A model generated the notes under the pieces. The model searched no databases, was not told where the DNA came from, and worked only from the letters and a program-made list of their open reading frames with translations. A program made the translations under genes and the position numbers. Below, piece by piece: positions 17,625 to 36,635 of a DNA stretch of 64,000 nucleotides (position 1 is the stretch's first letter; every line of letters begins with the position of its first letter). This DNA comes from a virus, in the IMG/VR virus record IMGVR_UViG_3300040959_000769, positions 62,001-126,000 of that record. One strand, given 5' to 3'.

Positions 17625-18144
17625 GCCAATTGCTGGTGTTGATCTGTCGTTGACTTCCACGGGTCTGTCCTGCGGAGACGACCGCACAGTAATTAACTCC
17701 AAACTCAAAGAAACGGCAAGATTATTTGAGATACAGTCATATTTCAGAACATGGATAAGCAGCAACGACTTTCCATTTTGTGTGATTGAGGGCTACTCGT
17801 TTGCAAGCAAAAATTCGCAGGCACACAAAATTGGTGAACTGGGCGGAGTTATTCGTTTGCAATTACATATGTTAGGAGTTGGGTATGTCGAAGTACCACC
17901 AACAGTTCGGGCAAAGTTTGCAACAGGGAAAGGTAACGCCAGCAAAAACGAAGTTGTTTCAGCAGTATCGGCAAGAACAGGAATCGTTTGGAGCGGAGCA
18001 GGAGCAGACGACCTTTGCGACGCATTCATCCTTGAGGAGATGGGGCGTACCGTCGTCGGTGATAACCGATACGACTGGCCATCCGAAAACAAGAAAGCCC
18101 TTGACAAAATCAACTGGTCAGAATTGGAGAAATACTATGGCTAG
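17614..18144 (+). CDS. RuvC-like Holliday junction resolvase
   Basis: 176 residues, ATG at 17614. The RNase-H fold is marked by GVDLSLTSTGL with Asp10, VIEGYSF with Glu59, and AGADDLCDAFIL with Asp132/133 and Asp136, the four acidic positions of RuvC. KGNASKNEV is the usual loop before the last helix. In phages such resolvases debranch replication and recombination intermediates before packaging, matching the Rad52/exonuclease pair upstream. Confidence 0.9.
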   Translation: MSSKPIAGVDLSLTSTGLSCGDDRTVINSKLKETARLFEIQSYFRTWISSNDFPFCVIEGYSFASKNSQAHKIGELGGVIRLQLHMLGVGYVEVPPTVRAKFATGKGNASKNEVVSAVSARTGIVWSGAGADDLCDAFILEEMGRTVVGDNRYDWPSENKKALDKINWSELEKYYG

Positions 18145-21615: not shown

Positions 21616-22169
21616 ATATGTTAGAAATTCAATGGGTTAACGGACAAGACCTTAACGCCGCAGAGTGGCGAGCAAACTACGTTTTGCAACCAGATCTTCG
21701 CGTGCTCTACCAAAGCATGAAAGATTACGGCTGGATCCAACCAATCATTGTCCAAAAGAAAACCAACGTGATCATTGACGGTCACTACAGGTGGGAAATT
21801 GCTGGCTCCCTGAAACCGTTTGAAAAGAAATACAAGTCCCTTGTACCCGTGGTCTACGAAGACTGTAGTGACACAGAGGCAATGATGATGCACCTGCGAC
21901 TCAACAGGGGTCGGGGGTCTGTTGCAGGCAAACAGATGGCACGAATCATCAGAAAAGTAAAAATGTCACGCAAGTACGATGAAAAAGATTTCAAGCGTTT
22001 ACTTGCAATGCACTATGACGAAATTGACATTATGGTTGATGGAACCCTTCTGAAGAGTAGGAATATCGCTGATCACAAGTATTCAAACGCTTGGATACCA
22101 GTTGAAGCGCCCGCAGATGCAACCGAAACGGCATCAATTATTGAACGCCCACCAAATGCGGATAGATGA
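21612..22169 (+). CDS. ParB/Spo0J-like protein (2), IbrB-like
   Basis: 185 residues, ATG at 21612 inside the upstream stop. PDLRVLYQSMKDYGWIQPII and VIIDGHYRWEIAGSL give the ParB-N signature, and MMMHLRLNRGRGSVAGKQMA resembles the box after it. It is compact, as in IbrB. The strict coupling to the PP-loop gene says the two proteins act together. C-terminal ~40 residues look disordered. Confidence 0.82.
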   Translation: MNMLEIQWVNGQDLNAAEWRANYVLQPDLRVLYQSMKDYGWIQPIIVQKKTNVIIDGHYRWEIAGSLKPFEKKYKSLVPVVYEDCSDTEAMMMHLRLNRGRGSVAGKQMARIIRKVKMSRKYDEKDFKRLLAMHYDEIDIMVDGTLLKSRNIADHKYSNAWIPVEAPADATETASIIERPPNADR

Positions 22170-22184
22170 TAAAATTTAGAAGTT

Positions 22185-22373
22185 ATGCCAACTCCATCCT
22201 TTTTACCTGACGAAGAAGTAAGCCCAGGAGATCGACGTCGTCGTCCTTCTTGGTGGCGTCGTGCCCTTGCAGCACTTCTGCGTTCACTTGGCAGAACAAG
22301 TCGCCCAGGTCAGTTCCGAGATCTCGCCCCCCGCAGATTCGGCGGTGCAGGTCGCGGTGGCGACGAAATCTGA
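22185..22373 (+). CDS. 62-aa basic Arg/Gly-rich protein
   Basis: ATG at 22185, 15 nt after the ParB-like gene. It begins MPTPSFLPDEEVSPGDRRRR and has WWRRALAALLRSLGR, a possible amphipathic helix, then a Gly/Arg-rich end. GC is higher than in the neighbours. A longer antisense frame (minus strand, 22183-22461) also exists; this plus-strand frame is preferred because it fits the operon spacing. Uncertain. Confidence 0.45.
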   Translation: MPTPSFLPDEEVSPGDRRRRPSWWRRALAALLRSLGRTSRPGQFRDLAPRRFGGAGRGGDEI

Positions 22374-22414
22374 TGCTAAGGTGATTTGATACTCGCACCT
22401 GAAAGCATTGGTTA

Positions 22415-23482
22415 ATGAAAATTGGGATTGCATCCAACGACTGGTCGCGAACAGTCTTCAATCAGTACGGAAACGTTCCAGGCGGAGCTAACTACATCCG
22501 CCTACAGCAATGGCAACGCCACTCTGAACACAAGTATGTCTCTGGACTTTTAGCAACTCACCCGAACAAAGGTTTCGGAATTGTTGACCATCGAGGAACT
22601 CAGCACTACGACATTGATGTAGTGATCATGCAGCGAATCATGCATCGTCAATTGACAGAAGATCTAATGAGCCCCAAAAACAGAAATAAATTAGTTATCA
22701 ATGATTTAGATGACTGGTACTGGGGTTTGCATCGCGACAATCTTGCTTATCAAAGACTGCAAGAAAATGCTGACAGCGACGAAACACTTGACTACTACAA
22801 AAGCAATATAAAACTCTCAGATGTAGTGGTTGTCTCAACACCTTTCCTGTTTTCAAAGATGGCACACGAATTCAGTATTGGATCAGACAAAGTCCACATG
22901 ATTGAAAACAGAGTTGATACCGACAAGTACAAGAGAAAACCAATTTCATCAAAGAAGCCAATCCTTGGATGGGTCGGGTCAACGCTACACCGTTCCATGG
23001 ATCTGGAGATATTGCAGGATTCACTATCCGACGGGGAATACCGCATGCACCACACCGGCTACGCTGGTGGACCAACAATGGCAAGCAAAATAGGCATTGA
23101 TCCAGGAAGAGTCACAACATCACCGATGTTCGATCCGTATCAGTATGGTCAGAAAGCCTTCACATCCTTTGATGTCGGGCTTGCACCTCTTAACGATGTT
23201 CCGTTCAATCACGCCAAGTCATGGATCAAAGCGATCGAATATGCCGCCGCAGGAATCCCATTCGTATGTTCGGACATCAGCGAATACCGGCGTCTGCAAA
23301 CCACATACGGAATAGGTCGTCTAGCTTCAACATCAGACGAGTGGAAACAACACCTCGCGGAACTAAAGAACCACTCAGTCAGGAAAGAAGAATCAGAAAA
23401 GGTCTACAAAACGGTACGTGAGCATCTTGACGTTCGTGAAATGGCCAAAGATTGGGATGCTTTAATTAGCAACTACACGTAG
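22415..23482 (+). CDS. GT4-like glycosyltransferase
   Basis: 355 residues, ATG at 22415. Two Rossmann-like halves are visible: an N-terminal half with DVVIMQRIMHRQLTEDL and INDLDDWYWGLH, and a C-terminal half starting PILGWVGSTLHRSMDLEIL and carrying DVGLAPLNDVPFNHAKSWIK and AIEYAAAGIPFVCSD, the donor-binding region of GT-B group-1 transferases (GT4-like). It would transfer a sugar from a nucleotide sugar. It borders the oxygenase island and ends 1 nt from the convergent PhyH gene, so it may take part in decorating virion or host molecules. Confidence 0.82.
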   Translation: MKIGIASNDWSRTVFNQYGNVPGGANYIRLQQWQRHSEHKYVSGLLATHPNKGFGIVDHRGTQHYDIDVVIMQRIMHRQLTEDLMSPKNRNKLVINDLDDWYWGLHRDNLAYQRLQENADSDETLDYYKSNIKLSDVVVVSTPFLFSKMAHEFSIGSDKVHMIENRVDTDKYKRKPISSKKPILGWVGSTLHRSMDLEILQDSLSDGEYRMHHTGYAGGPTMASKIGIDPGRVTTSPMFDPYQYGQKAFTSFDVGLAPLNDVPFNHAKSWIKAIEYAAAGIPFVCSDISEYRRLQTTYGIGRLASTSDEWKQHLAELKNHSVRKEESEKVYKTVREHLDVREMAKDWDALISNYT

Positions 23483-23483: not shown

Positions 23484-24236
23484 TCACAAGAAATACAAAG
23501 CCCCCGACCCGCCGTGGCGAGCATATCTATCCTTCATCGTTTCACTCTCCATCTCTGACTTCCTCACCTCGTAAGGAGGTAAAGGTCCGCGATGAAATTC
23601 GTGAGAATAAGTCCCACAGTAATGACCGATCAAAGTTGGCCGATGTGGGTTTGATCTAACTCGAGATCCACGGTGGTAGGTCTGGGAGTGCCAACCTACG
23701 ACATCACCCTTGCTGCCTTCAAAACGATAAATCTTTGGCTTCTTCTCCGCAATTTCAACCAAGATTCTTTGATTGACAATCTCGTCCTCAGCGTCTTTGT
23801 GATTTTCTCCGTCAAAAGAAATATGTTCCCACTTGTGAGAACCAACGATCAACTCAAAAGGTCCAGACTGGTCGTCAAGTTCACCCAAAGCGACAATCAC
23901 GCCAACATAAGTTGAGTTGGCATGAGGATCAGGCAGCAAAGCGTCCTTGTGCCAGCCGCACTGGGTGGATCTCTGCATGGTCATTTCTACGTGCAGAGCT
24001 GCCGCCATCTCAATTTCTTCAAAGGCACTTTCAATGGCTTGATGGCAAAGCACGTCAAGAATTTCCGGGTGCTCCAAGTATTTCGTGCTACGTCCCCATC
24101 CGTCAAGAGATTCACCATGGTTATGTTGGTACATCTCCAAATATGAATCAATAACCTCCCCAGGGATAGCGCTTTGCAACACAAAAAATCCGTCTTGCTC
24201 GTACTGCTCCGCAACGCTTCTTTTGTCGTTCATCAT
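23484..24236 (-). CDS. PhyH-family 2OG/Fe(II) dioxygenase (1)
   Basis: 250 residues, ATG at 24236 or 24233; both fit, since the upstream stop lies within ATGATG. It has the phytanoyl-CoA-dioxygenase pattern: EQDGFFVLQSAIP at the start, GWHKDALL with His96 and Asp98, then SGPFELIVGSHKWEH, and TYHRGSRVRSNPHRPTLIGH with distal His188 and Arg199 for 2-oxoglutarate. The metal triad and co-substrate residue are all present, so it should be active. The substrate is not predictable. Last gene of a four-gene leftward operon. Confidence 0.88.
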   Translation of the reverse strand: MMNDKRSVAEQYEQDGFFVLQSAIPGEVIDSYLEMYQHNHGESLDGWGRSTKYLEHPEILDVLCHQAIESAFEEIEMAAALHVEMTMQRSTQCGWHKDALLPDPHANSTYVGVIVALGELDDQSGPFELIVGSHKWEHISFDGENHKDAEDEIVNQRILVEIAEKKPKIYRFEGSKGDVVGWHSQTYHRGSRVRSNPHRPTLIGHYCGTYSHEFHRGPLPPYEVRKSEMESETMKDRYARHGGSGALYFL

Positions 24237-25018
24237 TCTCCCGAGTTATGCATGTTGGCTCGATACCAGCCGGAACCGTGCCACCGCATATCTGGATCGC
24301 GTTCCATTGATTCGACTACTTCACTAAGTTGTGGTCGTTCTGTTGACTCTGACCAAGTCCAATGATTGGAAAAATGCCCAATCAATGCTGGTCTCGGAAT
24401 GTTCCTACGTGGCGGAGAACCGCGATGAATTACCCTGCTGTTCCAGAACAGTGCATCGCCCTTCTTCGGCATGAAAGTTGTGACCTCATGTTCGTTATTA
24501 TCCATCGCCATTTGACACATGTGGAGCATCCCCAAGCGATTGTCTTTGCCGAACGATATGTCAAGATCCCAGCGATGAGAACCCTTCAGGTATTGGAATG
24601 GACCTGAACCCTCATCAATGTCAGCCAAAGCGATCCACACTCCAAGATATTGATCTGCACCGTTGGGATTGTCGTTGAGTTCATCAACGTGCCATCCGGT
24701 GTTTGACGATCTCCAGTAGGTCAGATCGGAGTGCAAGGCAAGGCACATGTCAAGTTTTGTGAAGGTGTCCGAAATTGACTGATGAAGAAGCAGATCTCGA
24801 ATCTCCGGATACTCCAAGTACATCTGGTCAATGCCGGTGAAGCGCTGATGGTTATCGTCAAAGGTGAAGGTTTTGTGCCAAAAGTTGTTGACGTAGTCAT
24901 CAATGACCGCATGCGGCACCAAACCAGGGCATTCAACTACCCCGTTTTTTTGAAATGTTTGGAGAAGTGTTTCAGTTTTGCCTGTCAAGGTGGACGATTG
25001 CGACAATTTTTTCTCCAT
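24233..25018 (-). CDS. PhyH-family 2OG/Fe(II) dioxygenase (2)
   Basis: 261 residues from ATG at 25018; an upstream ATG at 25054 is possible but overlaps the preceding gene further (47 nt overlap already). Motifs: TGWHVDELND with His110 and Asp112, SGPFQYLKGSHRWD, and VIHRGSPPRRNIPRPALIGH with His198 and Arg209. Similarity to the neighbouring PhyH gene in layout suggests an old duplication. Predicted active; substrate unknown. Confidence 0.85.
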   Translation of the reverse strand: MEKKLSQSSTLTGKTETLLQTFQKNGVVECPGLVPHAVIDDYVNNFWHKTFTFDDNHQRFTGIDQMYLEYPEIRDLLLHQSISDTFTKLDMCLALHSDLTYWRSSNTGWHVDELNDNPNGADQYLGVWIALADIDEGSGPFQYLKGSHRWDLDISFGKDNRLGMLHMCQMAMDNNEHEVTTFMPKKGDALFWNSRVIHRGSPPRRNIPRPALIGHFSNHWTWSESTERPQLSEVVESMERDPDMRWHGSGWYRANMHNSGE

Positions 25019-26537
25019 CGGTGCATGCGAGAGATTCGTACACGAGACTACCATCAATCAACATTGCATCCCCAGAGCAGGGCTTATCTAAAATTGTTGT
25101 GCCTTCTTTTTCGCGTATCACAATGTTTCCATTTTTGTAATCGTCGTTCAAGAAGAAAATCAGTGTCGTCGTTCCCGCCATCTCAACGTTATATGTTTCA
25201 CCTTCTGGCGCACCAGCACCAGATCCTTCAACGAACTTCATGTGCGACAAGGAATTACCCAGGTCGTAAGCAAGATGCCTACATCCAAAGAATTCATCTG
25301 CATGTTTGATTACTTGAGCTATTGAATCGCCGATGTTTTCATACAAAACATTTGAGTAATGCGCTTCGTTTACGAGGTGTAGATGTGTTGACTCGGGAGG
25401 TGAGTCCGGACGCAGATTTTGCCATTCTGCTGATTTTAGGTTTGGGTAAATCTCTGAAGAGTCAAAGCATTCCTCAATGATGAGTACGCCTTCAACTTCA
25501 GGTGTCTTTAAACGCATTGTTTTGTCTTTCTTCACAAGAGATGAATCAACAAGTCGTCTTTCCATCGGATCCGCCTGTGTGCCAACAGCGAAACACCAGT
25601 TTCCACGGAAGCGTCGTTGCCCCTCCTGCATTCCACCCCTGACTCCGTGAGCCATTCGGAACAGGTCAGGCAACGCAAAATCACCTTCATCCCATTTATG
25701 CCACATCTGGATGTCGTTGTTGTAAGTAATTTCTTCAGTGATCTTCACCATCAGGCGATCGAAAAATTCAATTTCTTCTTTTGTGGGTTGCCTGCCGTCA
25801 AAGAGAACTAGATGATCTTGGATGCCCCAAGGCGCACTACATGGGCAAACGCGCAGCGTGTCTCTGCCTGATGCGGGGTGAGGGTCTACGGCTTGCCTGG
25901 AGTAAGAATTGATGTAAGAGTCGCCATCAATCATGGTGACTTTGTCGCGTTTTGCCTGCACAAAAAGATCTGCCATGGACAGGTTTTCGTCATAGGGGGC
26001 TTCATAAATTGCCTCTATGAATTTTCGACTCAGTTTGTAGGGGTCGCCTTGTTGCCAGTTGGGAACGTGAATGATCCTGGACTTTTTTAGGAATTCTTTT
26101 TCCGGCTCAGCAAGATCGTCGTACATCTTGCACATATCAACGAGCCCGGTTTTCCCGAATTCGCTACTGCACGCAAAAAGCTCCATGTTCCACCCGGCGG
26201 CATACTGTGGCCACCGCATAGCAACGCCTTCTACATGCCATTGGATTAGATCTTTTTCAGGTGAGTTGACGCCATCCTCTTCGTCCTGCCTGATCGCCTT
26301 ATCGTGATCCTGCATGTATGGCCAACTAAGAGTGTCTTCGCGAGGTCCGTTGTCATCAGTTGCGAAAGCAGTGAAGTTCAACTCGGGGCCAAGCGCTCTA
26401 AAGATTTTCACTACTTCAGCGTCAGAGAAGTACGCTTTTTTGAAAACGATCATTCCATGCTGCTTGTAAGCAGCGGCGTACAAAGATGGGTTTTCAACTA
26501 CTTGCTCAACTGTGTGTTGATCAAATTCAACAATCAT
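24972..26537 (-). CDS. TauD-like dioxygenase fused to a degenerate P4H-like domain
   Basis: 521 residues, ATG at 26537. Residues ~20-315 follow TauD/TfdA: HGMIVFKKAYFSDAEV, IQWHVEGV with His101 and Glu103 as the HxE pair, EGDFALPDLFRMAHGVRGG with distal His297, and arginines at 309/311. Residues ~345-520 resemble the prolyl-4-hydroxylase fold: TTTLIFFLNDDYKNGNIVIR, then a CSGDAMLIDGSLVYESLACT segment. There the HxD pair is not seen and the distal His is replaced by Tyr-Glu, so the second domain is probably catalytically dead. A substrate-binding role is the likeliest. It is coupled to the gene upstream (26534). Confidence 0.82.
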   Translation of the reverse strand: MIVEFDQHTVEQVVENPSLYAAAYKQHGMIVFKKAYFSDAEVVKIFRALGPELNFTAFATDDNGPREDTLSWPYMQDHDKAIRQDEEDGVNSPEKDLIQWHVEGVAMRWPQYAAGWNMELFACSSEFGKTGLVDMCKMYDDLAEPEKEFLKKSRIIHVPNWQQGDPYKLSRKFIEAIYEAPYDENLSMADLFVQAKRDKVTMIDGDSYINSYSRQAVDPHPASGRDTLRVCPCSAPWGIQDHLVLFDGRQPTKEEIEFFDRLMVKITEEITYNNDIQMWHKWDEGDFALPDLFRMAHGVRGGMQEGQRRFRGNWCFAVGTQADPMERRLVDSSLVKKDKTMRLKTPEVEGVLIIEECFDSSEIYPNLKSAEWQNLRPDSPPESTHLHLVNEAHYSNVLYENIGDSIAQVIKHADEFFGCRHLAYDLGNSLSHMKFVEGSGAGAPEGETYNVEMAGTTTLIFFLNDDYKNGNIVIREKEGTTILDKPCSGDAMLIDGSLVYESLACTDGEKIVAIVHLDRQN

Positions 26538-27202
26538 TTTTCGTCGTCGTATTCCTCAGCCAAGAAGTACTCAATCGCTGCTCGAATACGTTTCAACCCT
26601 TCTTTTGGACCGTATTCGTCGTAGCCGGTCTCAAAGTTTGCTGGCAGCAGGCACCCGTTAGTGAATCGTGCTCGCCGCTTGCCGTCACGGGAAACAATAA
26701 ACTTCTCAAAGTTGCCCAAAATCAACGAACCTGGATCAATACCAAGCCTCTTATAGATGGGGTGTGGCTCAAATGAGCGGTCGTCGTCTTCTCGGCTGTA
26801 ACGAGATTTAACCAACTCGGTGAACGGTAGACGGACTCGGTAGTTGTAAAAGGCGTAGTTGTAAGCCTCTTCAGCCGTGCTCGTCGAGTTGTTTGCAAAG
26901 TCGCCATACGCGAACTCGCAATAGTCGTTAGTTGGCACGCAAACAATTTGAAAACCCTGATCTTCATAGTCGTATTGCAGAACCTGAAGCATCGGATACT
27001 GCATTGAGTTTCCGCACTCTCCTGTCACGTTGACAATCATGGTGACGTTACCGCGTTGATTAGTGATCAGATCGCCTTCTTCGCTGTCAAAAGGCAAAAG
27101 CGGAATGTCGTAAACGCTTTCCCCGTCAGCAGTTGGGCCAAGATCATGTTCGGAGACGAGTAGATCCATCATTTCTTGTGAAATTGACTCAATTTTCGCC
27201 AT
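26534..27202 (-). CDS. glutathione-peroxidase/thioredoxin-fold protein
   Basis: 222 residues from ATG at 27202 (a TTG 15 codons upstream is less likely). TMIVNVTGECGNSMQYPMLQ corresponds to the peroxidatic-Cys loop of glutathione peroxidases with Cys63, and LGNFEKFIVSRDGKRRARF to the WNFEKFLV-type motif (Asn164 kept, Trp replaced by Gly). The usual Gln is replaced (PTNDY). It may be a peroxide or thiol reductase, or a redox partner protecting the Fe(II) enzymes encoded after it. First gene of the leftward oxygenase operon; overlaps the next by 4 nt. Confidence 0.72.
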   Translation of the reverse strand: MAKIESISQEMMDLLVSEHDLGPTADGESVYDIPLLPFDSEEGDLITNQRGNVTMIVNVTGECGNSMQYPMLQVLQYDYEDQGFQIVCVPTNDYCEFAYGDFANNSTSTAEEAYNYAFYNYRVRLPFTELVKSRYSREDDDRSFEPHPIYKRLGIDPGSLILGNFEKFIVSRDGKRRARFTNGCLLPANFETGYDEYGPKEGLKRIRAAIEYFLAEEYDDEK

Positions 27203-27254
27203 GCAGGGATAATACCATTCCCTTGCTCCTCGGCGATAAAACCCCAAAATATGC

Positions 27255-27293
27255 TACAATCGGTGTTGCACCAGTGTTCTGTAGGAGACGAAG
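27255..27293 (+). promoter_or_regulatory. extended -10 promoter and strong RBS for the small-ORF cluster
   Basis: In the 91-nt divergent gap, ATGCTACAAT gives an extended -10 (TGC then TACAAT at 27255-27260) with no good -35. TAGGAGACGAAG precedes the ATG at 27294. The minus-strand GPx-like gene starts on the other side, so the gap probably holds two divergent promoters. Confidence 0.45.
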
Positions 27294-27545
27294 ATGGTAG
27301 CTCTCAACAATATCAACAATGACCAAAAACTCTATCATTTGAATCTTATCAAAGAGTCTGCTGAAGAGTTGATTATCGTTGCAGCGCTTCACGCTGGAGT
27401 AAACCCAGAAACCATTGACACTGGCACGCACCCACTGCCCGACAGTTTTGACACAGAGGCAGAAGACTTCAACCAACTGGACGTCAACCTGGCGGAACGG
27501 GTCAAGCAGTACAACGATCTCGTCACGCGAATCAACTCACTCTGA
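27294..27545 (+). CDS. small acidic protein, tandem family member A
   Basis: 83 residues, ATG at 27294 with a strong GGAG. Core ESAEELIIVAALHAGVNPET matches the next two genes in pattern: two to three acidic residues, a hydrophobic helix, then (V/I)(N/D)P plus Glu or Val and Thr/Ser. Function unknown. First of a plus-strand run between two oxygenase operons. Confidence 0.7.
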   Translation: MVALNNINNDQKLYHLNLIKESAEELIIVAALHAGVNPETIDTGTHPLPDSFDTEAEDFNQLDVNLAERVKQYNDLVTRINSL

Positions 27546-27552
27546 GGTCAAA

Positions 27553-27765
27553 ATGATTTTCTCAATCTCCAACGAAAAGAAAAGAAGCGCCGCACTCAAT
27601 GGTGTTGCCGCATGCGAAGAAGACGTATTCATGGCTTGCATGTCACTCAACATCGATCCAGTATCAGTTGCTGACGACTATTCCAGCGATGACCCCTCCT
27701 ACGAAGTATTGTCAGATGCAATGCAAAAACTCCGAGACGCAAAGGCGTACTTGGCAGCACTCTGA
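27553..27765 (+). CDS. small acidic protein, tandem family member B
   Basis: 70 residues from ATG at 27553 (GAGGTCAAA upstream); a longer frame would run into the previous gene. Core ACEEDVFMACMSLNIDPVSV parallels members A and C. C-terminal helix LSDAMQKLRDAKAYLAAL. Function unknown; probably a paralogue produced by tandem duplication. Confidence 0.65.
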   Translation: MIFSISNEKKRSAALNGVAACEEDVFMACMSLNIDPVSVADDYSSDDPSYEVLSDAMQKLRDAKAYLAAL

Positions 27766-27780
27766 CGCTAGGAGCACAAA

Positions 27781-27993
27781 ATGGCATTGTCAGCAGCTCA
27801 AATCGCTCAAGCGAGAAGCGAAGCCCAAGACTTCTTGGAGTACTCAATCTTCGTGCTTTGCACGTTTCTGGAAGTTGACCCAGAAACAGCAACGTCCGCA
27901 ATGGAAATCCCCGTTTCCGAAGCAGATCTAAACTATTACAACTACGTCTCGCTGAAGCGACAATTGTCGGCATTTGAGGCTCTAACGGCATGA
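27781..27993 (+). CDS. small acidic protein, tandem family member C
   Basis: 70 residues, ATG at 27781 with TAGGAGCACAAA in front. Core DFLEYSIFVLCTFLEVDPET has the same acidic-hydrophobic-DPE layout as A and B, followed by a SEADLNYYNYVSLKRQLSAF helix. Overlaps the next start as ATGA. Confidence 0.68.
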   Translation: MALSAAQIAQARSEAQDFLEYSIFVLCTFLEVDPETATSAMEIPVSEADLNYYNYVSLKRQLSAFEALTA

Positions 27994-28220
27994 AGTTTTC
28001 GTCACCTCACCTTCGAGCCGTTCTGGATGGGGATGATCGACATCCAAGCGAAATCGCTACATCAACTGGACGCTTCGTGCCTGAGGAAGAAACACCCGAA
28101 TCGGAAAGCGTCAACAACAACATGGGAGCCGCAATCACCTTCAACCCTTCCGTTGGAGCGCTTGAACTTGCCGAAGAAGGTGCAGTCATCATCTGCGAAA
28201 AAGTTAGAAAAGACACCTAA
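27990..28220 (+). CDS. small acidic hypothetical protein
   Basis: 76 residues, ATG at 27990 inside the stop of member C. Low complexity Glu/Ser/Asn region in the middle (EEETPESESVNNN), then GAVIICEKVRK. Not a member of the A-C family. Its stop overlaps the next ATG (TAATG), so it is translated in the same unit. Confidence 0.6.
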   Translation: MKFSSPHLRAVLDGDDRHPSEIATSTGRFVPEEETPESESVNNNMGAAITFNPSVGALELAEEGAVIICEKVRKDT

Positions 28221-28555
28221 TGGCCATCAGGACCTCAACTCCAACATCAGGCAAGGTTTATAGCCCTCAGGCGGAACTTGACTGGACAAGCACACACTTG
28301 CTGTCATGCTTCTACATCTTGGGTCTCACAGAAGATGATATGGATACATACACCATTGACGACCTGGTTGATCGTTGCACTTGGATGTTTGAGCCACACA
28401 CCCTTGAGGCTTACCTGACTGTCTTAGGTAAAGAAAGATCATACGACCCCGGATTTTCTTTCGGCAGAAAACAGCGCAGTTGGATGGTTCTCCTAGTCAG
28501 AAGGTTCTGGCGTCGTCGCCATATTTCGCAGTACGAGGTGAACAGCGGTGTCTAG
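28220..28555 (+). CDS. hypothetical protein, possibly divergent member of the A-C family
   Basis: 111 residues, ATG at 28220. DWTSTHLLSCFYILGLTEDD is laid out like the acidic helix of A-C but lacks the Asn/Asp-Pro. C-terminal half is basic (RRFWRRRHISQYEV). Overlaps the next gene (GTG at 28548) by 8 nt. Function unknown. Confidence 0.6.
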   Translation: MAIRTSTPTSGKVYSPQAELDWTSTHLLSCFYILGLTEDDMDTYTIDDLVDRCTWMFEPHTLEAYLTVLGKERSYDPGFSFGRKQRSWMVLLVRRFWRRRHISQYEVNSGV

Positions 28556-29321
28556 CAGCATTTTCCATAAAGGCGTCGTTGCTCGAAGCCTTTCCACTAA
28601 CCAAACTGGAACCACTTGGGAAGACGAGTTGAGCGTTGTGCGCGACTACTCCCGCCTCGCCGATGCGGCAATTACTGCCGCCAACGCTGACATGCGACAA
28701 GCTGCCGTTGGTCGAGACTGGTACTTCTGGAAATATTCCACGTGGCTAGGTGAACAAGACAACACATGGCTTGAATACGCTTGGCGCAACTACGTAGCAG
28801 TTAAATCTCTATATGGCGTTCTGAAGCCAAGAGACTTGGAAACAACTGAGAAAATTCTCATCTCTGGATCTTTCCCCATCCAGATGCACACGGCACACAT
28901 GCAGGCAGGGACAAAAGATTATTACTGGTTGAACTCACTTGAAACCAGAATCATGGAAGACACGCTGAACGAGAACGGAACCATCCCCAATCAACCAGAG
29001 TGCTCCTACAAAATCATTGACTTTGAAGACTTTGAGCAAGGCACAGTAACGGAATTTTTTGATTCAGCCCGCCTGCACACCCATGACTTCCTGACCCCGA
29101 ACCTAAATCTGGTTGACAACATGCTTGACTCAATCAGGGTAGGCGGAATCATGATGATTTACGATCTTGCTGAATTCGGCGCTTTGTACGAAGACGGCAT
29201 GCGCGCCCACGAAGAGCGAATGCACCGGATCAACCGCCGTATTGCCCAACGTGAAGACTACGAGGTGTATCACTTGGCACACGACGAGATCGGTACAGTT
29301 CTTGCCTACCGCATCGGCTAA
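28548..29321 (+). CDS. hypothetical protein, possible degenerate methyltransferase fold
   Basis: 257 residues with GTG at 28548. The C-terminal third (FFDSARLHTHDFLTPNL, then NMLDSIRVGGIMMIYDLAEF and a final strand VYHLAHDEIGTVLAYRIG) is arranged like the last strands of class I methyltransferases; the glycine-rich SAM loop is not evident. It stands next to a P4H-like gene on the same strand. I give the fold only as a possibility. Confidence 0.6.
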   Translation: MSSSIFHKGVVARSLSTNQTGTTWEDELSVVRDYSRLADAAITAANADMRQAAVGRDWYFWKYSTWLGEQDNTWLEYAWRNYVAVKSLYGVLKPRDLETTEKILISGSFPIQMHTAHMQAGTKDYYWLNSLETRIMEDTLNENGTIPNQPECSYKIIDFEDFEQGTVTEFFDSARLHTHDFLTPNLNLVDNMLDSIRVGGIMMIYDLAEFGALYEDGMRAHEERMHRINRRIAQREDYEVYHLAHDEIGTVLAYRIG

Positions 29322-29330
29322 TATAAATAC

Positions 29331-30329
29331 ATGCCCGCAAGATTCGGACCTCCAACTCGAGACAAGTACGCCTATTACAGTCTTGACGAAAACGACTGCA
29401 AAACTGTCAACGAGATTGAGTACACAAATTACAAAGGTGGAGTAATCCACTTCCACAACGTTTTCAACGTTGACCGAGACGTAATTTTGCCATACATTGA
29501 CGAAATGGCATACGTGCCATCATGTGGTCTTGAAATCATCAAAGACGACGAAGGCAACATGCTCCACGGCGAAACTTTTGACGGCAAAATCGTGGACATG
29601 AAAGATCTACTCGCACTACCAATGCGGGTCGGCGGTATGGGGATGCCTGAACCAGTCAACCCAAGCACGCCACACGACGTCAGAAACTTTTTTGAGGGTG
29701 TTGAGGAAAGTTTGTATCACTGCCTAATCAGGTACTGTGATATTTACCCACTTATCGTCAACTCAATTTGGTGGCGAATGAGAGGACACTGTCTCAAGTA
29801 CATGCCAGGAGCGAATCTGGGTCTCCACAACGACAACGACACCAACACCTTCACCATTGATGGGCAGAGGTACTACAGCGAACGAGAGATCGCTATGTAC
29901 CAAGTCGTGAACGGTCTGGCTTATTTCAACGATGACTATGAAGGTGGAGAAATGCACTTCCCCTACTTAGACATCACGGTAAAACCAAAAACCGGAGACA
30001 TCATTCTTTTCCCTGCCAACTATGTTGGAACTCATGGAGTGGCGCAAGTTGGAGAAGGAGCACCTCGATACACCTACCTGACGCAGTTCGGTCATGGCGG
30101 AGAGCACAAATACGAAGTACTGGAGCCTCAGGAAAGCGACATGTGGCTAGCTCCGGTGTATGTGCCTTACCTGTACCAAGATCACGTCAAGTTCTCCCAT
30201 TCGGGCTACTCGCACCTGGACACGTCAAAAGACTCAGCGTTAGGTTTCCACGCCTCAACTATTGAGACGCAGCAACGCTCAAAAGAGGGCGCTCCAGTCG
30301 GAACTAAGATTCCGTACGAAGAGGAGTGA
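29331..30329 (+). CDS. P4H-like 2OG/Fe(II) oxygenase
   Basis: 332 residues, ATG at 29331, 9 nt after the previous stop. Catalytic core: YMPGANLGLHNDND (His166, Asp168), GLAYFNDDYEGGEMHFPYLD, KTGDIILFPANYVGTHGV (His235), and PRYTYLTQFGHGG (Arg246). The order and spacing match prolyl-4-hydroxylase-type double-stranded beta-helix enzymes. The N-terminal 140 residues are a helical lead with VIHFHNVFNVDRDV, shared in style with other members of the island. The only island oxygenase on the plus strand; its 3' end overlaps the convergent P4H-like gene by 26 nt. Confidence 0.87.
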   Translation: MPARFGPPTRDKYAYYSLDENDCKTVNEIEYTNYKGGVIHFHNVFNVDRDVILPYIDEMAYVPSCGLEIIKDDEGNMLHGETFDGKIVDMKDLLALPMRVGGMGMPEPVNPSTPHDVRNFFEGVEESLYHCLIRYCDIYPLIVNSIWWRMRGHCLKYMPGANLGLHNDNDTNTFTIDGQRYYSEREIAMYQVVNGLAYFNDDYEGGEMHFPYLDITVKPKTGDIILFPANYVGTHGVAQVGEGAPRYTYLTQFGHGGEHKYEVLEPQESDMWLAPVYVPYLYQDHVKFSHSGYSHLDTSKDSALGFHASTIETQQRSKEGAPVGTKIPYEEE

Positions 30330-30975
30330 AAGGAATAGTTCCTATCAGAGTTCCATGACCAAAGAACTCCAGATAGGAAATACGTTCCCCTGACGTTACT
30401 GGCACAACTTCGTGAGTGCCTAAGAAACCGGCAGGATAAACAAATGCTGTTCCCGCTTCGGGGGCGAAATGCTTGTCGATGTATTTGAATCCAAGATCGC
30501 CACCGACGCAATCATCTTTCAGAATCAGAGATCCGGTCAGGACGCTGTAGATCGCTTTTTCGCTTTCCGAACCAGCACCAACTAAGTTGTCGTTGTGATA
30601 TCCCATGTATCCACCCGGTTTGTAGGTAGCGACATGAGGCACGGCTCTCCACCAAATGTTTTCTTTTGCGTCAGGGAAGAAATTGAAATATTTGGTGACA
30701 CATTCACCCATTGATTTTTCAAGAAGTTCTGCAAACTTCAGATCGTCGTCAGTGGTGTTCACTTTAAGTTGCAGAAGACGACCTGGGGAAGCATTGACCT
30801 GCTCCTCTGTGAAGATGTAGCCACCCCTATTCATGTACGTGCCATCATCCTGCAAGGTGTAGTCGCTTGGTTCTTGTTCGCGACGGCGTTCAAGCCATCC
30901 TTCAAAAAACGAAGCATCAATGTCTAGGACATTTCGATACTCAACGATCCCAAAGCCGTGATGGATTGCTTCCAT
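30304..30975 (-). CDS. P4H-like 2OG/Fe(II) oxygenase
   Basis: 223 residues, ATG at 30975, overlapping the upstream stop as TAATG. Motifs: YKPGGYMGYHNDN with His127 and Asp129, LTGSLILKDDCVGGDLGF, EAGTAFVYPAGFLGTHEV with His188, and GERISYLEF with Arg198. The WWR preceding the core (NIWWRAVPHVATY) is also present in two other island members. Predicted active. Last gene of the seven-gene leftward operon from 35963. Confidence 0.87.
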   Translation of the reverse strand: MEAIHHGFGIVEYRNVLDIDASFFEGWLERRREQEPSDYTLQDDGTYMNRGGYIFTEEQVNASPGRLLQLKVNTTDDDLKFAELLEKSMGECVTKYFNFFPDAKENIWWRAVPHVATYKPGGYMGYHNDNLVGAGSESEKAIYSVLTGSLILKDDCVGGDLGFKYIDKHFAPEAGTAFVYPAGFLGTHEVVPVTSGERISYLEFFGHGTLIGTIPFTPLRTES

Positions 30976-31556
30976 TACTTCTCGTCAGGGAATTCGGTTC
31001 CACGCTCGCGGTCATTGCGGAGACGCTTCACCTCTTTGGCTGAGGTTTCATGAACCTCGGGTGTCCAGTACCCGTCAGTGAAAAGATCAGCAACCTCCTG
31101 AGCCCTATCTCCTGACAGGTACAGGGTGTGCTCATTTGTGTAGCCTTCACGACCGGGATATGGCCATCCATAAAGTCCGGCTTCAACATAATCAATGCCT
31201 GCTCCGGTGATGATGGATGCAATTTCCTGTTCGGACTCTTCGCCCCAGAGACCGTTGGCGTCAACGTAAAGTCCGTTGTAGCCACGAGATGCAACATAGT
31301 TCGCAATCTCAAGTGGAGCGCCACCAAAAGCAATGCAGAAAATGATGTCGCATTTTGCGAGCATCGCATCAAGGGTCACGAGATCAGTGAGATCAAACTC
31401 TGCTGCACGTTCGTGTGTTGCCTCAGAGCGATCAGCCGATGCCCAGACAACCCTGTGCCCGCTCTTACACAAAGCATAGGCAAGGGTGCCGCCCATCTTT
31501 CCTGGGTGGGCAATTCCAATTGTTTTATCCGACTGGGGGGAGTATTGAGTATCCAT
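30975..31556 (-). CDS. truncated NAD(P)-binding dehydrogenase-like protein
   Basis: 193 residues from ATG at 31556 (a longer frame enters the upstream gene). KTIGIAHPGKMGGTLAYALC is the Rossmann loop of 6-phosphogluconate/3-hydroxyisobutyrate-dehydrogenase relatives; YNGLYVDANGLWGEES and GIDYVEAGLYGWPYP match later strands of the NAD domain. The C-terminal all-helical domain that completes the active site in this family (another ~100 residues) is missing. It may be an NAD(P)-binding partner or a minimal reductase. Embedded between oxygenases with overlaps on both sides. Confidence 0.75.
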   Translation of the reverse strand: MDTQYSPQSDKTIGIAHPGKMGGTLAYALCKSGHRVVWASADRSEATHERAAEFDLTDLVTLDAMLAKCDIIFCIAFGGAPLEIANYVASRGYNGLYVDANGLWGEESEQEIASIITGAGIDYVEAGLYGWPYPGREGYTNEHTLYLSGDRAQEVADLFTDGYWTPEVHETSAKEVKRLRNDRERGTEFPDEK

Positions 31557-32349
31557 CTTCCATGTACACATTCGTTGAGATTCGGGCAAGGGTAGGGTGT
31601 TCTTGTGGGTCAACCACATTTTCGCAAACATCAGGGTTTGGCGTACCTTGACAATACCACCCCAAGTAAGAGTAGCGCCACCCGCCAGTCACGGGCTGCA
31701 CTTCATGCGCTGCAACATAATTAGACGGGAAGAAAAGCATGTCGCCTTTCTTTATGTCTTCGTGTTTGATATCTAGGTATTCGAAGTTATGAGCACCACC
31801 AGTGAAGTTCGTTCCGTCAAGCTCATCCTCCGACTTGACGTTGTCGTTCAGGTAAGCCACAACCGAAACGCTGTTGCGAGTGGCCAACTGATCACGAGGA
31901 TGAGGCTTGCCGTACTCGTAGTCAGTACTCACATCTGCGTGCATTCCTAAAAACCCGCCAACCGGATAAGCAACAATGTGGCTTTTGATCTTCCACCAAA
32001 TGCACTTACCGGCAATTGGGAACATTTCTAGATACGAGAGAAGACACGCATCTCGGCGCTCCTCAATGTAGTCAAGGACATCAATTACTTCAGAGCGGCT
32101 GTCCTGATGAACGAAACTCCCACGCCACGGCATCTCATCCAACGAATCTTTCTTAAAGAAATATCCGCTCCGATTGATGTAGCCGTCCTCACCAGTAATC
32201 GGGTCAACACCTGGCGTGTACATGGTCTCGCGCTCTGCCTGCAAAACGTCCTTGCAGTATTCACGCATCCAATCCCAGTCAAGGTTGAACACGTTCTCAA
32301 AGAGGACGACACCACCACCGAGGTGTGTACCAACAGGATTATCGCTCAT
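31525..32349 (-). CDS. P4H-like 2OG/Fe(II) oxygenase
   Basis: 274 residues from ATG at 32349; GGGGGA lies 8 nt upstream, and another ATG at 32355 is possible. Motifs: AYPVGGFLGMHADVS with His137 and Asp139, VVAYLNDN, KGDMLFFPSNYVAAHEV with His215, and GWRYSYLGW with Arg225. IWWKIKSHIVAY precedes the core as in its neighbours, so these P4H-like genes are probably paralogues. Predicted active; substrate unknown. Confidence 0.86.
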   Translation of the reverse strand: MSDNPVGTHLGGGVVLFENVFNLDWDWMREYCKDVLQAERETMYTPGVDPITGEDGYINRSGYFFKKDSLDEMPWRGSFVHQDSRSEVIDVLDYIEERRDACLLSYLEMFPIAGKCIWWKIKSHIVAYPVGGFLGMHADVSTDYEYGKPHPRDQLATRNSVSVVAYLNDNVKSEDELDGTNFTGGAHNFEYLDIKHEDIKKGDMLFFPSNYVAAHEVQPVTGGWRYSYLGWYCQGTPNPDVCENVVDPQEHPTLARISTNVYMEDGYSILPPVG

Positions 32350-33907
32350 ATTCATGTTCCCCCAGTTCAAGCATGTATCCAACATAGTCGTGGATGCGCT
32401 CAATGATCCGCTTCCGGTCATCGTTATCTCGAAGATGATTGAAACAACCGTAGATGGTGTCAATAGCAAACTGAACCAAGAAATCCTCGGGAGGATCGTG
32501 ACCCCTGAAGCCTTCGTATGTCATGAAAGACAAATTATGGAAGTCCCATGGGCGAAACTGCAAAGGCTGGTGTGGGAACCAATCGGGATAATGCCATGCA
32601 TGTCCGGCGTGCCGCATGTCTGGATGCCAACGCAGATACGCACGAACCTTCTCAATGACTGTCAACGTGTCGTCGTCATTTGGTGCTTGCTTCATGAAGT
32701 CTTGATGCGGAGGGAACCCGCCATGCATGTCCCCGTTGCGAGAAAACAGGAACGACTGACCCTCAAGATCAAACCCTTCCATGTGGGCTTTGCTGTAACG
32801 CATCAAGTTAGCGAAAATTCGATCCTCCGGATCCATCTTCACTGGGTAGACATGGAAGTCCTCGCCAAACGGTTCATTGTCAAAAAACTCTTTCAACTTG
32901 ACGCCACGCTCAGGAATGTTCCCATCCTTGGTGAAGATGAAAAGCGTTACCTTCTGAAATAGACACTCAAGTCCCTCAAGGGCATAGATTCCCTTTGTGA
33001 AGACAAGAGGAATGTGGTCAGGGTTCGGACCTTTTGACTTGTCCTTATCAACGCCAGGGTATGACTGTACGTCACCAAAGTTCTCGTTACCATCAACCTT
33101 GTACTCGGGATCGTAGAAAGGCTTCTCCTTCCCTACCTCTACCCGCTGGAAGACCCTATCCTCTCGCTCCCAGCCATTGTAAAAACCGTGCATTACGGCA
33201 CGATTGTCCCAGATGACTACGTCGCCTTCTTGCCACGTCCACTTGTAACGATTAGCTTCTGTTCGGCAATACTCCTCAACCCAGTCGTAGAGTTCTTCAA
33301 ACCATGGGGTGCTCCCCCCGTCAAGTTGGGTGCCTGGTCCGGTCCAGTAAAGAAGAGTTTCTCCAGTATCCGGATGTGTTCGCAAGGCGGGATGGCTGAC
33401 AACGTCACGTCCTGCGGCTCCAGTCTCCGCCACGAAACGAGCCGTCGGCAGGTGTTCCTTAATGTGCTCAGGACACTCTTCGTACAGATTTACAAGACTC
33501 ACCCAGAATGTGTGACCGAAATCTTTATCAACACGGTAGGTCGTCATATGGATGGAAGTAACCGCAGGAGGAGCTTCCAAGAACGGGTTATCTACATGCC
33601 AGTTCTCTTTCAGAAACTGTTCAGGATCCGTTTTATCTTCAACATTCTTGACCGTTGGGTGATTTACGCCCGCAAGAAGACCACCGTTGAAATCTTCATC
33701 AACTTCGCCTGTGTAGATAGCGTTGACCAGTTTCATGTGCTCCTGGTCGGTTGGGTTCATGCCGATGAAACCAACCATCTTGTTCTTGTTGAAAATCAAC
33801 TTGAAATACTCTGGGTCATCAAGAACTTGCCGGGCAGTGATGCCTCTCATCTTGAAACCGAGGTTGCCTAGTTTCAGTCCTAAGGCGATTCCGCCAAAAC
33901 CTTTCAT
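32339..33907 (-). CDS. TauD/TfdA-like dioxygenase with novel C-terminal half
   Basis: 522 residues, ATG at 33907 within the upstream stop (ATGA). The TauD domain spans ~20-260: LKENWHVDNPF with His104 and Asp106, THPDTGETLLYW, WQEGDVVIWDNRAVMHGF with His240, and arginines 251/255 in REDRVFQR. This is a complete active site. Residues ~265-522 are not assignable: a strand-rich piece (VTLFIFTKDGNIPERGVK) and a His/Trp-rich piece (DMRHAGHAWHYPDWFPHQPL) then a helical end. The fusion is unusual in TauD enzymes. Confidence 0.86.
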   Translation of the reverse strand: MKGFGGIALGLKLGNLGFKMRGITARQVLDDPEYFKLIFNKNKMVGFIGMNPTDQEHMKLVNAIYTGEVDEDFNGGLLAGVNHPTVKNVEDKTDPEQFLKENWHVDNPFLEAPPAVTSIHMTTYRVDKDFGHTFWVSLVNLYEECPEHIKEHLPTARFVAETGAAGRDVVSHPALRTHPDTGETLLYWTGPGTQLDGGSTPWFEELYDWVEEYCRTEANRYKWTWQEGDVVIWDNRAVMHGFYNGWEREDRVFQRVEVGKEKPFYDPEYKVDGNENFGDVQSYPGVDKDKSKGPNPDHIPLVFTKGIYALEGLECLFQKVTLFIFTKDGNIPERGVKLKEFFDNEPFGEDFHVYPVKMDPEDRIFANLMRYSKAHMEGFDLEGQSFLFSRNGDMHGGFPPHQDFMKQAPNDDDTLTVIEKVRAYLRWHPDMRHAGHAWHYPDWFPHQPLQFRPWDFHNLSFMTYEGFRGHDPPEDFLVQFAIDTIYGCFNHLRDNDDRKRIIERIHDYVGYMLELGEHEYER

Positions 33908-34626
33908 GAAGGCTCCTTCAGTTGTGGGTGACCCTCAAATGCGGGGCCAATACGATTACCGTTTTCGTCTAGCCCAGTTCGGATGCCACCCATCCAAGTC
34001 CAAGGCTGTTCTTGCAACTTCTTCATCTTTGCATCACCGTACGACTGTCGAGCAGCAGACAAATCTGGCTTGTCCCAGTAGTTCTCAACTGTGAACTCAA
34101 CGCTTGGCATCAGAGAGTTGTCGTAAAACTGGAAAAACATAAAAGGTGAACCAGCAGGAAAAATAACTGGCTGACCAATTTTTGTGATCTTCCAGTTCAT
34201 GTTGAACTCGTCTGGCCACCAGTCAGATGGAATGTGCGCCGTTAAAGGAACAGCCCCATCAACAAAATAGTTAGGTGACCCGCTTATCCACGTGGACACT
34301 CCTGGAGGCGTTGAGAACGTCCACCCAACAGTGAACGACATAATCCCAACAATGCTGGGCATAACAATGTCACGTTCGTAAGTCTGACCATTTGTCTCAA
34401 ACGTCATCTTCTCGCCGGACAGGACACGAGGAACAGTCAGCCCCCCGTCCCATTGAATAACAACATCTTGTTGGAGAAGAACCTCCCAACCGTTGACGTT
34501 TGCTTCAGTCAGGGGAAGACACTTGTATGCATGCTTCTTGTAGGTGTCATCCATCCAGTCGCGTCGAACTGACGCTTGCTTTATCTCAGGTGGATTTTGA
34601 TGTGTTCTAGTGAGAGTTACATCCAT
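33904..34626 (-). CDS. probable DUF6065-family protein
   Basis: 240 residues from ATG at 34626, chosen because it overlaps the upstream stop as ATGA (a GTG lies one codon earlier). KCLPLTEANVNGWEVLLQQD followed by strand-rich IQWDGGLTVPR and later FPAGSPFMFFQFYDNSL resembles the DUF6065 pattern (recalled, not searched). No oxygenase triad is present. Its location inside the oxygenase operon links it to the same pathway. Function of the family is not known to me. Confidence 0.65.
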   Translation of the reverse strand: MDVTLTRTHQNPPEIKQASVRRDWMDDTYKKHAYKCLPLTEANVNGWEVLLQQDVVIQWDGGLTVPRVLSGEKMTFETNGQTYERDIVMPSIVGIMSFTVGWTFSTPPGVSTWISGSPNYFVDGAVPLTAHIPSDWWPDEFNMNWKITKIGQPVIFPAGSPFMFFQFYDNSLMPSVEFTVENYWDKPDLSAARQSYGDAKMKKLQEQPWTWMGGIRTGLDENGNRIGPAFEGHPQLKEPS

Positions 34627-35327
34627 CACTGAATAGCCATCGTCTGACCGCTGGCAACAGGAATTCCCATTGTCGTATCTTGCTGCGCCGAGTACCCACC
34701 TCCGCCGTGGCTCTGGTGGTTACGGTCGTTGTAGTCATACATGGTGACGGCAGAATACTTGATTCCACTCTTTACAGGCTGAGAAGCATGAGCGTAAATG
34801 AAATCACTTGGATGGACAATGACATCACCTGCTTCGGGGACAAACTGAAGGTTTTTGTACGGCATGATGTACTCGCCGCCTTCGTAGTCGTCATTCAAAT
34901 ACCCAATAGCAGACACGGCGCAAGAATAAGAAAACCCAGAGTCAGGATGAACTGAGAAATGCTGCCCCTCGCCATAGCGAACGAAGTTGGTGGCTTCTTC
35001 ATAGTCAAGTTGCAAGTTGTACATTGACGAGTAGTGCTGCACGCACTGGCGTACACCAGAAATAACTTCCTCGTACACCCGTCCAAGATCTGCGAACTCT
35101 TCAGGAACAGGGATGTCTGCTTGACGCAACTTGAAGTCAACGCAATCTCTGTAATCCTTCATCACCTCGTAGTCTCCAACTGTCGCCTGCTTCCATGAGA
35201 AGTATTCGTGGGTGCTCTCAGCGAGACCGGTTTCAAGTCGAGCGATGAAGTTTGAGTCAGGTGCCCAAACGTCTTTGTACAGCATGATGCCGTCGGTCGG
35301 GTTGCCCAAGTATCCGCCAATTCTCAT
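34626..35327 (-). CDS. P4H-like 2OG/Fe(II) oxygenase
   Basis: 233 residues, ATG at 35327. RYGEGQHFSVHPDSG gives His127 and Asp129, IGYLNDDYEGGEYIMPYKNL and EAGDVIVHPSDFIYAHASQP give the sheets and His180, and Lys190 (SGIKYSAVTMYDY) takes the place usually held by Arg. A Lys is used by true prolyl hydroxylases for 2-oxoglutarate, so activity is plausible. 3 nt separate it from the upstream gene. Confidence 0.86.
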   Translation of the reverse strand: MRIGGYLGNPTDGIMLYKDVWAPDSNFIARLETGLAESTHEYFSWKQATVGDYEVMKDYRDCVDFKLRQADIPVPEEFADLGRVYEEVISGVRQCVQHYSSMYNLQLDYEEATNFVRYGEGQHFSVHPDSGFSYSCAVSAIGYLNDDYEGGEYIMPYKNLQFVPEAGDVIVHPSDFIYAHASQPVKSGIKYSAVTMYDYNDRNHQSHGGGGYSAQQDTTMGIPVASGQTMAIQ

Positions 35328-35330
35328 TAT

Positions 35331-35963
35331 TTACCTCAGTTCAGTGATTGTGTAGAAAGAAGGGGTAGTCCATCTTTCTCCACGGGTAATTTGTTTTACA
35401 CCATGAAGATAGTGGACATCACCTGGATGTGCTACCGCTAAGCCTGGTTTTATCGGAATTTCAATATCGAACTCAGGGTAATAAAACTCGCCACCATCAA
35501 AATCTTCGTTCCAGTAAATGATTGAGTTCAGGTCATACAGAGGGAAAGGATTTGGCTTTCCGTCATTCAACTGTTTATCCGCGTGTGGTTGCTGCTCATT
35601 GCCTGGAAGCCATCTGATAAGTACTGGCGGGCGCTTGTATAGAGCAACGTTGAATTTGTCCTCCAACACTTTTTGCATCTTGTCAATATATTTATCAATC
35701 AGATTAAATATATCTGGGGAGATGCGTTTGAGGATTTCGCCACTACACATTCGATCCCACCAATAGGAGGCGTCGTAAATACACGTGCCATCTTCATCAA
35801 ATTCGTCACCCATAGGATTTTCCCACTCTTCAATAGTCGGGAAAAACTTTTGCAGGGTTTTCAGATCATCTAGATCTACGAAGTTTTCAATGACTGTGAT
35901 GTTCTCTGCTGTTGTTCCGAAGTGACCTGGTTCAACTAGCGATTTTTCTTCAACTTGTTCCAT
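35331..35963 (-). CDS. P4H-like 2OG/Fe(II) oxygenase, first gene of the leftward island operon
   Basis: 210 residues, ATG at 35963. Motifs: RWLPGNEQQPHADKQ with His127 and Asp129, IIYWNEDFDGGEFYYPEF, GLAVAHPGDVHYLHGVKQI with His187, and GERWTTPSFYTI with Arg197. It lies 84 nt downstream of the XFPP-repeat gene on the same strand, separated by a perfect 12-bp hairpin. Of all island oxygenases it is the closest to a candidate proline-rich substrate. Predicted active. Confidence 0.87.
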   Translation of the reverse strand: MEQVEEKSLVEPGHFGTTAENITVIENFVDLDDLKTLQKFFPTIEEWENPMGDEFDEDGTCIYDASYWWDRMCSGEILKRISPDIFNLIDKYIDKMQKVLEDKFNVALYKRPPVLIRWLPGNEQQPHADKQLNDGKPNPFPLYDLNSIIYWNEDFDGGEFYYPEFDIEIPIKPGLAVAHPGDVHYLHGVKQITRGERWTTPSFYTITELR

Positions 35964-36047: not shown

Positions 36048-36635
36048 CTACTTAAAGCTCGGCGGGAAGAAAGGCGGGAAGTGTGGTGGGAAGTGAGGCG
36101 GGAACCACGGTGGGAAGTGTGGTGGGAAGAACGGTGGGAAATGTGGTGGGAAGTGTGGAGGGAAGAACGGCGGGAAATGTGGCGGGAAGTGAGGTGGGAA
36201 GTGTGGAGGGAAGTGAGGTGGGAAAAACGGTGGGAAGTGCGGAGGGAAGTGAGGAGGGAAAAATGGTGGAAAATGCGGAGGGAAATGGGGAGGGAAAAAC
36301 GGCGGGAAGTGGGGTGGAAAGTGCGGAGGGAAGAATGGCGGAAAGTGTGGCGGAAAGTGAGGCGGGAAAAACGGTCCGATTGCGCGAACAGAAATAGTTG
36401 TTCCCAAAGGAATTTCAGTGAAAGTGGTTGTGAGGTTGTATTCCTGACCGTCAACAATGATGTCATGCGCTTTACCGACATCACCTAAAACACTCGTGTT
36501 TAGCGTATCGACAGCTTCAGAAACGGCGGAAAACCCGAGATTCTGCAACGACACCACGAAATTGCCAGCGTCTGTGAGATCGGTATACGTGAACGTACCT
36601 AAAGGTAGTCCGCTTCCGCCTTTGTTACCTGCCAT
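36048..36635 (-). CDS. XFPP-repeat protein, probable virion component
   Basis: 195 residues, ATG at 36635, 6 nt after the giant fibre gene. Residues 1-88 are an ordinary folded-looking domain (TFTYTDLTDAGNFVVSLQNL, later EYNLTTTFTEIPLGTTISV). Residues 89-192 are 26 uninterrupted XFPP tetrapeptides: 17 HFPP, 8 FFPP and one WFPP, mostly in an FFPP-HFPP-HFPP triad, and the end is SFK. No Cys, no charged residue except the final Lys occurs in the repeat. The repeat should form a polyproline-like, aromatic and metal-binding (His) surface. 52 prolines in Pro-Pro pairs would stall ribosomes without EF-P. It is an obvious candidate substrate of the P4H-like enzymes downstream. Confidence 0.85.
   Translation of the reverse strand: MAGNKGGSGLPLGTFTYTDLTDAGNFVVSLQNLGFSAVSEAVDTLNTSVLGDVGKAHDIIVDGQEYNLTTTFTEIPLGTTISVRAIGPFFPPHFPPHFPPFFPPHFPPHFPPFFPPHFPPHFPPFFPPHFPPHFPPFFPPHFPPHFPPHFPPHFPPFFPPHFPPHFPPFFPPHFPPWFPPHFPPHFPPFFPPSFK
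36057..36370 (-). repeat. 12-bp tandem repeat tract encoding XFPP
   Basis: About 310 nt of imperfect tandem repeats with 12-nt periodicity (plus strand GGNGGGAARTGN-like, minus strand TTYCCNCCNCAY-like). Synonymous third-position differences are frequent between units, so the peptide is conserved more than the DNA, which points to selection for the protein repeat rather than recent slippage. Confidence 0.8.

Follow-up and report, generated by a model that had tools for sequence, protein, structure and literature searches.

The DNA analysed here, a 64,000-nt stretch referred to as the window (positions 62001–126000 of the 137,166-bp virus record IMGVR_UViG_3300040959_000769), carries a cassette of 2-oxoglutarate (2OG)/Fe(II) oxygenase genes and helper genes, lettered A to M, which adjoins the gene for a protein, N, that ends in a long repeat of the unit [aromatic]-Phe-Pro-Pro. 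Our preferred reading, to which we give a probability of roughly 0.6, is that the enzymes hydroxylate and tailor the prolines and aromatic residues of this neighbouring repeat protein. The data suggest that phages of this kind tailor one of their own proteins, probably a tail protein, by means of a dedicated multi-enzyme assembly line. The record represents a tailed, contractile phage, for which portal, terminase, tape measure and sheath genes were found.

N (36048–36635, minus strand; 195 aa), the first gene of the cassette and the proposed substrate, comprises an N-terminal domain and a C-terminal tract (36060–36371, minus strand) in which 26 tandem [F/H/W]-F-P-P units occupy the last ~55 % of the protein. 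The gene is positioned directly upstream of the enzymes on the same strand, immediately after that of a tail-fibre-like structural protein (36642–42926, minus strand; 2094 aa; Mtd_N, 7.8e-17; PHROG tail/structural families). The 26 units are encoded by 23 distinct DNA sequences, and because codon positions 1 and 2 of F-P-P are invariant in 26/26 units while the third positions vary, selection acts on the peptide rather than on the DNA. The repeat pattern gave 20 matches versus 0 in shuffled sequence. The original prediction had set the limits of the island at 23484–35963 and left its substrate as a peptide, sugar, lipid or base. The genes within these limits were recovered; however, the boundary falls one gene short, as N belongs to the cassette, and since this overlooked repeat protein adjoins the enzymes, a peptide substrate is indicated.

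At the level of sequence, the enzymes are clearly associated with the tract. In an enzyme-blind scan, IMG/VR was searched for DNA encoding four tract units, ignoring the enzymes, and the tract records of ≥20 kb were compared with 34 control contigs of ≥20 kb picked by random 14-mer. DUF6065, the family of cassette gene K, was present in 35/44 tract records versus 0/34 controls (Fisher P 4e-14), any match to PF13640, the family of the prolyl 4-hydroxylase (P4H)-like enzymes, in 41/44 versus 3/34, and at least five PF13640 matches in 35/44 versus 2/34 (Fisher P 2e-11); the records share ancestry, so these P values overstate independence. As only those two random contigs reached at least five PF13640 matches, dispersed over 160–176 kb, the density of 2OG genes in the island is beyond chance. 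The polarity of the association is fixed: among tract loci with at least 5 kb of downstream sequence, DUF6065 was found there in 33/43 and two or more P4H-like genes in 35/43, while DUF6065 lay upstream of the tract in 1/23 only, and it was on the tract's strand in 50/50. In the reverse direction, 27 distinct DUF6065 loci extended far enough upstream, and 25 of them have the tract there; of the remaining two, L093 is on a contig that does carry a tract (L126). A tract was absent from all 130 random loci (1.14 Mb).

Beyond IMG/VR, the pattern was detected in 17 stretches among 84,980 prokaryote species genomes, with genuine [FHY]FPP open reading frames (ORFs) only in loci L364, L369 and L373 from two metagenome-assembled genomes (MAGs). 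All three are PASTA-tract proteins; cassette genes adjoin the tract in L364 and L369, and too little sequence follows it on the L373 contig for a verdict. Viral DNA that was binned into MAGs may account for these contigs. DUF6065 returned zero matches by tblastn among 50,697 phage records (two divergent queries) and zero in the genome_contigs collection, megablast of the region against phage sequences likewise gave none, and query C retrieved only its own sequence in the search for relatives.

The tract is not confined to one protein context. In distant contigs, it stands behind fibronectin-III (FN3) repeats, behind PASTA or behind neither, and in some it lies within long tail-like proteins; in N orthologues, a PASTA domain precedes the tract, above the Pfam cut-off in 2/3 tested, and the window copy of N returned no Pfam match. 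Judging from these architectures, the tract is a modular element carried on unrelated domains, and M-, L- and K-type genes persist despite the exchange of the domains attached to it. A substrate–enzyme pairing predicts such persistence, whereas simple synteny in one phage lineage does not. The same observation bears on the possibility that the enzymes target the tail fibre or a host-surface molecule, the FPP tract being merely a scaffold, a binding partner or a linked tail component. Polyproline tracts are common binding modules, and a tail-fibre gene sits immediately upstream of N in the window's clade, both of which would fit this alternative; however, the enzymes follow the tract across changes of its attached domains, and proline hydroxylases and a proline repeat are a natural match, which favours the tract as the substrate. 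We therefore regard a different target as unlikely. As a separate observation, the tract protein in loci L203, L205, L225, L226 and L200 continues into a C-terminal region that resembles Hint/intein-type domains by eye (Pfam reported none for L205), a resemblance that could point to autoprocessing of the repeat protein.

The order N-M-L-K-J-I-H-G-F′-E′ recurs in IMG/VR relatives at identities of 38–71 % for J and 53–90 % for K, relatives found with the DUF6065 query spanning 27–90 % identity across the set. In the window's clade, M-L-K-J-I-H-G is followed by convergent F and E. Contigs at a greater distance retain M, L and K along with several P4H-like genes, the orientation of M being inverted in some. 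Ten loci, representing seven distinct sequences, encode H and G as a single ORF in which the Rossmann part invariably precedes the oxygenase, and this fusion ties their two steps together. The edge genes C, B and A vary between relatives; A, B and the C-terminal extension of C lie outside the conserved core. The idea of one modification to which the enzymes contribute jointly thus finds support in a gene order shared by dozens of divergent contigs and in the H-G fusion, and the pattern that would have contradicted it, genes scattered singly without order or co-occurrence, was not seen in the relatives. On this comparative evidence the island is a real cassette and not an accumulation of genes; the accumulated accessory genes that the original prediction allowed for may describe the variable edge (A, B and C), but not the conserved core. 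Small-molecule, lipid or 2-oxoglutarate metabolism by auxiliary metabolic genes, or plain accumulation, would accommodate the edge genes that differ between relatives, and cyanophage 2OG genes have been read in metabolic terms (PMC9602691); nevertheless, the conserved order, the H-G fusion and the tract linkage with fixed polarity argue against either, and we consider both improbable.

In the mechanism that we propose, the phage would produce N, probably a component of its tail, together with the late tail genes, and N would reach the virion with its [aromatic]-Phe-Pro-Pro repeats forming a rigid, polyproline-type rod at the C-terminus. Modification of the tract would fall to the co-oriented M, L, K, J, I, H and G, plus the convergent F and E. 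Its prolines would be hydroxylated by P4H-like enzymes, at ring positions or at sites of the repeat register that differ; other positions, aromatic residues included, may be hydroxylated by the TauD-type enzymes and by additional P4H-like ones. Between them, G and H would introduce a hydroxyl group and then oxidise or reduce it, E would add a methyl group to a hydroxyl, and D would clear the peroxide of uncoupled turnover or handle thiols, with K (DUF6065) as the constant partner of the proposed pathway. More tentatively, and at somewhat less than even odds, the 2OG oxygenases, DUF6065 and helpers may constitute a widespread and previously undescribed phage system, in which a modular aromatic-FPP repeat, grafted on diverse tail proteins, is heavily hydroxylated and then oxidised further or methylated to yield a rod that serves in host attachment.

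Several points weigh against the tract as the substrate. Its [F/H/W]FPP units lack Gly, and the X-Pro-Gly repeats of collagen-type P4H substrates are absent; the cassette contains more enzymes than simple proline hydroxylation requires; and the tail fibre could be the other partner of the linkage. The variable residue of the repeat (H/Y/F) shows no strict correspondence to the enzyme repertoire, and a tracking of TauD enzymes by the His content of the repeat was rejected on that account. Furthermore, the counts given above are not independent, as the 43 loci with both tract and DUF6065 collapse into 14 clusters at 60 % DUF6065 identity, and 9/44 tract records lack DUF6065 and 3/44 lack PF13640, some of them, not provably all, being fragments.

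A leader, a repeated core and clustered tailoring enzymes are also the known layout of repeat-containing precursors of ribosomally synthesised and post-translationally modified peptides (RiPPs). With its precursor-like leader domain and repeated core beside a set of tailoring enzymes, N might be one of these, its repeats undergoing oxidation and cleavage so that small modified peptides are released to act as a signal or toxin. We give little credence to this scenario, as the repeats are contiguous without cleavage-site spacers, the tracts are carried by proteins with FN3 or PASTA domains and by long tail-like proteins, and no protease or transporter was among the cassette genes annotated with Pfam, a result obtained with no dedicated RiPP search.

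The inventory of genes agrees with the original prediction. All nine 2OG/Fe(II) genes of three superfamilies (five P4H-like, two TauD and two PhyH) were confirmed at the predicted positions by Pfam and alignments, each with the HxD/E…H…R/K residues intact and kept across relatives, and its accessory calls also held (D, GPx fold; K, DUF6065; H, a weak Rossmann match; E, Rossmann-like in the form of an O-methyltransferase fold). F, G, I and L combine PF13640 above the cut-off with HxD…H…R/K; C and J have PF02668 above the cut-off and HxD/E…H…R, placing them in TauD, and A and B have PF05721 above the cut-off and HxD…H…R, placing them in PhyH.

Reading from N through the core, M (35331–35963, minus strand) scores below the PF13640 cut-off (20.6 bits) but is taken as P4H-like because of its PHROG 61 match (6.3e-12) and conserved triad (H127/D129/H187/R197, kept in 53–54/54 relatives). 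L (34626–35327, minus strand; PF13640, 3.9e-9) is a further P4H-like core enzyme (H127/D129/H180/K190, 55/55). The core protein K (33904–34629, minus strand) matches DUF6065 (PF19541, 2e-43; 149 bits versus a cut-off of 26.6) and has a predicted beta-rich fold (AF2 pLDDT 91); a fold search gave only distant beta-clip/dUTPase-like matches at 5–8 Å rmsd, too remote for a function to be drawn from them. J (32339–33907, minus strand) is a TauD-type oxygenase (PF02668, 4.9e-30 over residues 29–242; H104/D106/H240/R251, 23/23), and its C-terminal half (residues about 280–522), conserved with many invariant His and Arg residues and without a Pfam family match, is possibly a second catalytic domain. 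The P4H-like I (31525–32469, minus strand; PF13640, 2e-11; H177/D179/H255/R265, 64–66/66) has a listed start that overlaps J, and its true start is probably internal to the listed ORF. H (30975–31631, minus strand) is an NAD(P)-binding Rossmann protein (2-Hacid_dh_C, 25.0 bits versus a cut-off of 25.1), and G (30304–30975, minus strand) is P4H-like (PF13640, 1.1e-6; H127/D129/H188/R198, 22/22 and 21/21).

On the plus strand, convergent with the main operon, lie the P4H-like F (29331–30329; PF13640, 1.8e-7; H166/D168/H235/R246, 45–46/46) and E (28548–29321), which is predicted to adopt an S-adenosylmethionine O-methyltransferase-like fold (AF2 pLDDT 84; best Foldseek E value 6.4e-8, with an (O-)methyltransferase annotation on nearly all of the 50 matches listed), alongside a sequence with no Pfam match and few invariant residues. 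Between D and E, at 27294–28555 (plus strand), are four small ORFs of 70–116 aa that by eye look like one small helical protein duplicated and diverged. D (26534–27247, minus strand) is a glutathione-peroxidase-fold protein (PF00255, 1e-9) whose Cys (NVTGEC) is conserved in the window's clade and lost in a paralogous clade in the alignment. At the variable edge, C (24972–26537, minus strand; PF02668, 5.7e-16; H101/E103/H297/R308, 12/12) is a TauD-type enzyme with an extra C-terminal domain; in relatives C measures 316–336 aa and a P4H-like sequence often follows as an ORF of its own, and the window's C resembles a TauD enzyme fused to a P4H-like domain with lost ligands. The edge also includes two PhyH-type oxygenases on the minus strand, B (24233–25057; PF05721, 3.8e-13; H123/D125/H211/R222, kept in 2/2, two sequences only) and A (23484–24236; PF05721, 9.7e-13; H96/D98/H188/R199, kept in 4/4, four sequences only). 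Beside the island, window positions 20446–23482 (plus strand) encode PAPS-reductase-like, ParB-like and glycosyltransferase genes; membership of the glycosyltransferase in the cassette is unsupported, as none of the three was detected at the relatives' loci.

Outside 23484–35963, the record holds at least five additional P4H-like genes (one near 48.7 kb and four at ~130.1–135.6 kb, in record coordinates), for a total of at least 14 2OG genes. A second island (locus L017, record 124001–137166; 724–11641 in locus coordinates) contains four P4H-like genes, one just below the Pfam cut-off, a carbamoyltransferase (PF02543/PF16861) and an ADP-ribosylglycohydrolase/dual-specificity phosphatase fusion. 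Since carbamoyltransferases often act on hydroxyls, this island may be a separate modification set.

The genome also encodes a C5 DNA methyltransferase (PF00145, 1.6e-65; record 16553–17749, locus L378), possibly for base modification or defence evasion. Together with the carbamoyltransferase that accompanies 2OG genes elsewhere in the genome, it would be compatible with a role of the cassette in DNA base hypermodification. We hold this to be very improbable: the methyltransferase gene is >60 kb distant, no linkage of this kind is seen in random phages, a peptide repeat is what the cassette follows, and no Tet_JBP match was found in the genome, though the control of that search was also silent (F gave a weak Tet_JBP match of 0.16 in Pfam).

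If the tract is indeed the substrate, the cassette would provide the first functional context for DUF6065, on which our literature search found no paper, and prokaryotic viruses would be shown to perform multi-enzyme protein tailoring. With the likely substrate encoded beside the enzymes, the question is open to direct test. Searching the literature for hydroxyproline in phages and for hydroxylation in virions, we encountered no description of this arrangement of cassette and repeat protein.

The number of 2OG genes from different subfamilies in one phage, for which the original prediction knew of no precedent, is less novel than supposed. Cyanophage S-SCSM1 has 24 published 2OG-Fe(II) genes (PMC9602691), and the six cyanophages that we searched returned 2–11 PF13640 matches each. 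The window's phage thus resembles the cyanophages in carrying many PF13640/PF05721-type genes. In those six, however, the genes are mostly dispersed and no FPP tract was found, whereas the window's cassette has a conserved order and polarity and departs from the scattered layout of cyanophage-type auxiliary genes. A viral P4H-type enzyme has a precedent in PBCV-1, for which PMC9301287, citing Eriksson et al. 1999, mentions a prolyl 4-hydroxylase and evidence for 4-hydroxyproline in viral proteins; that is one enzyme of an algal virus, unlike the several 2OG enzymes of three families and the DUF6065 protein that adjoin an aromatic-FPP repeat in the phage. The P4H-fold enzymes of animals and plants that hydroxylate collagen and extensin likewise act on proline-repeat rods, but the tract of this prokaryotic virus has the unit [F/H/Y/W]FPP, without Gly and without Ser-Pro. 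Finally, phage collagen-like tail proteins (PMC3368898) offer a parallel in their proline-containing repeat rods on tail proteins; these are stated to be without prolyl hydroxylation, whereas here hydroxylase-type genes lie alongside. The chemistry that we propose is therefore of a familiar type; what is new is the arrangement.

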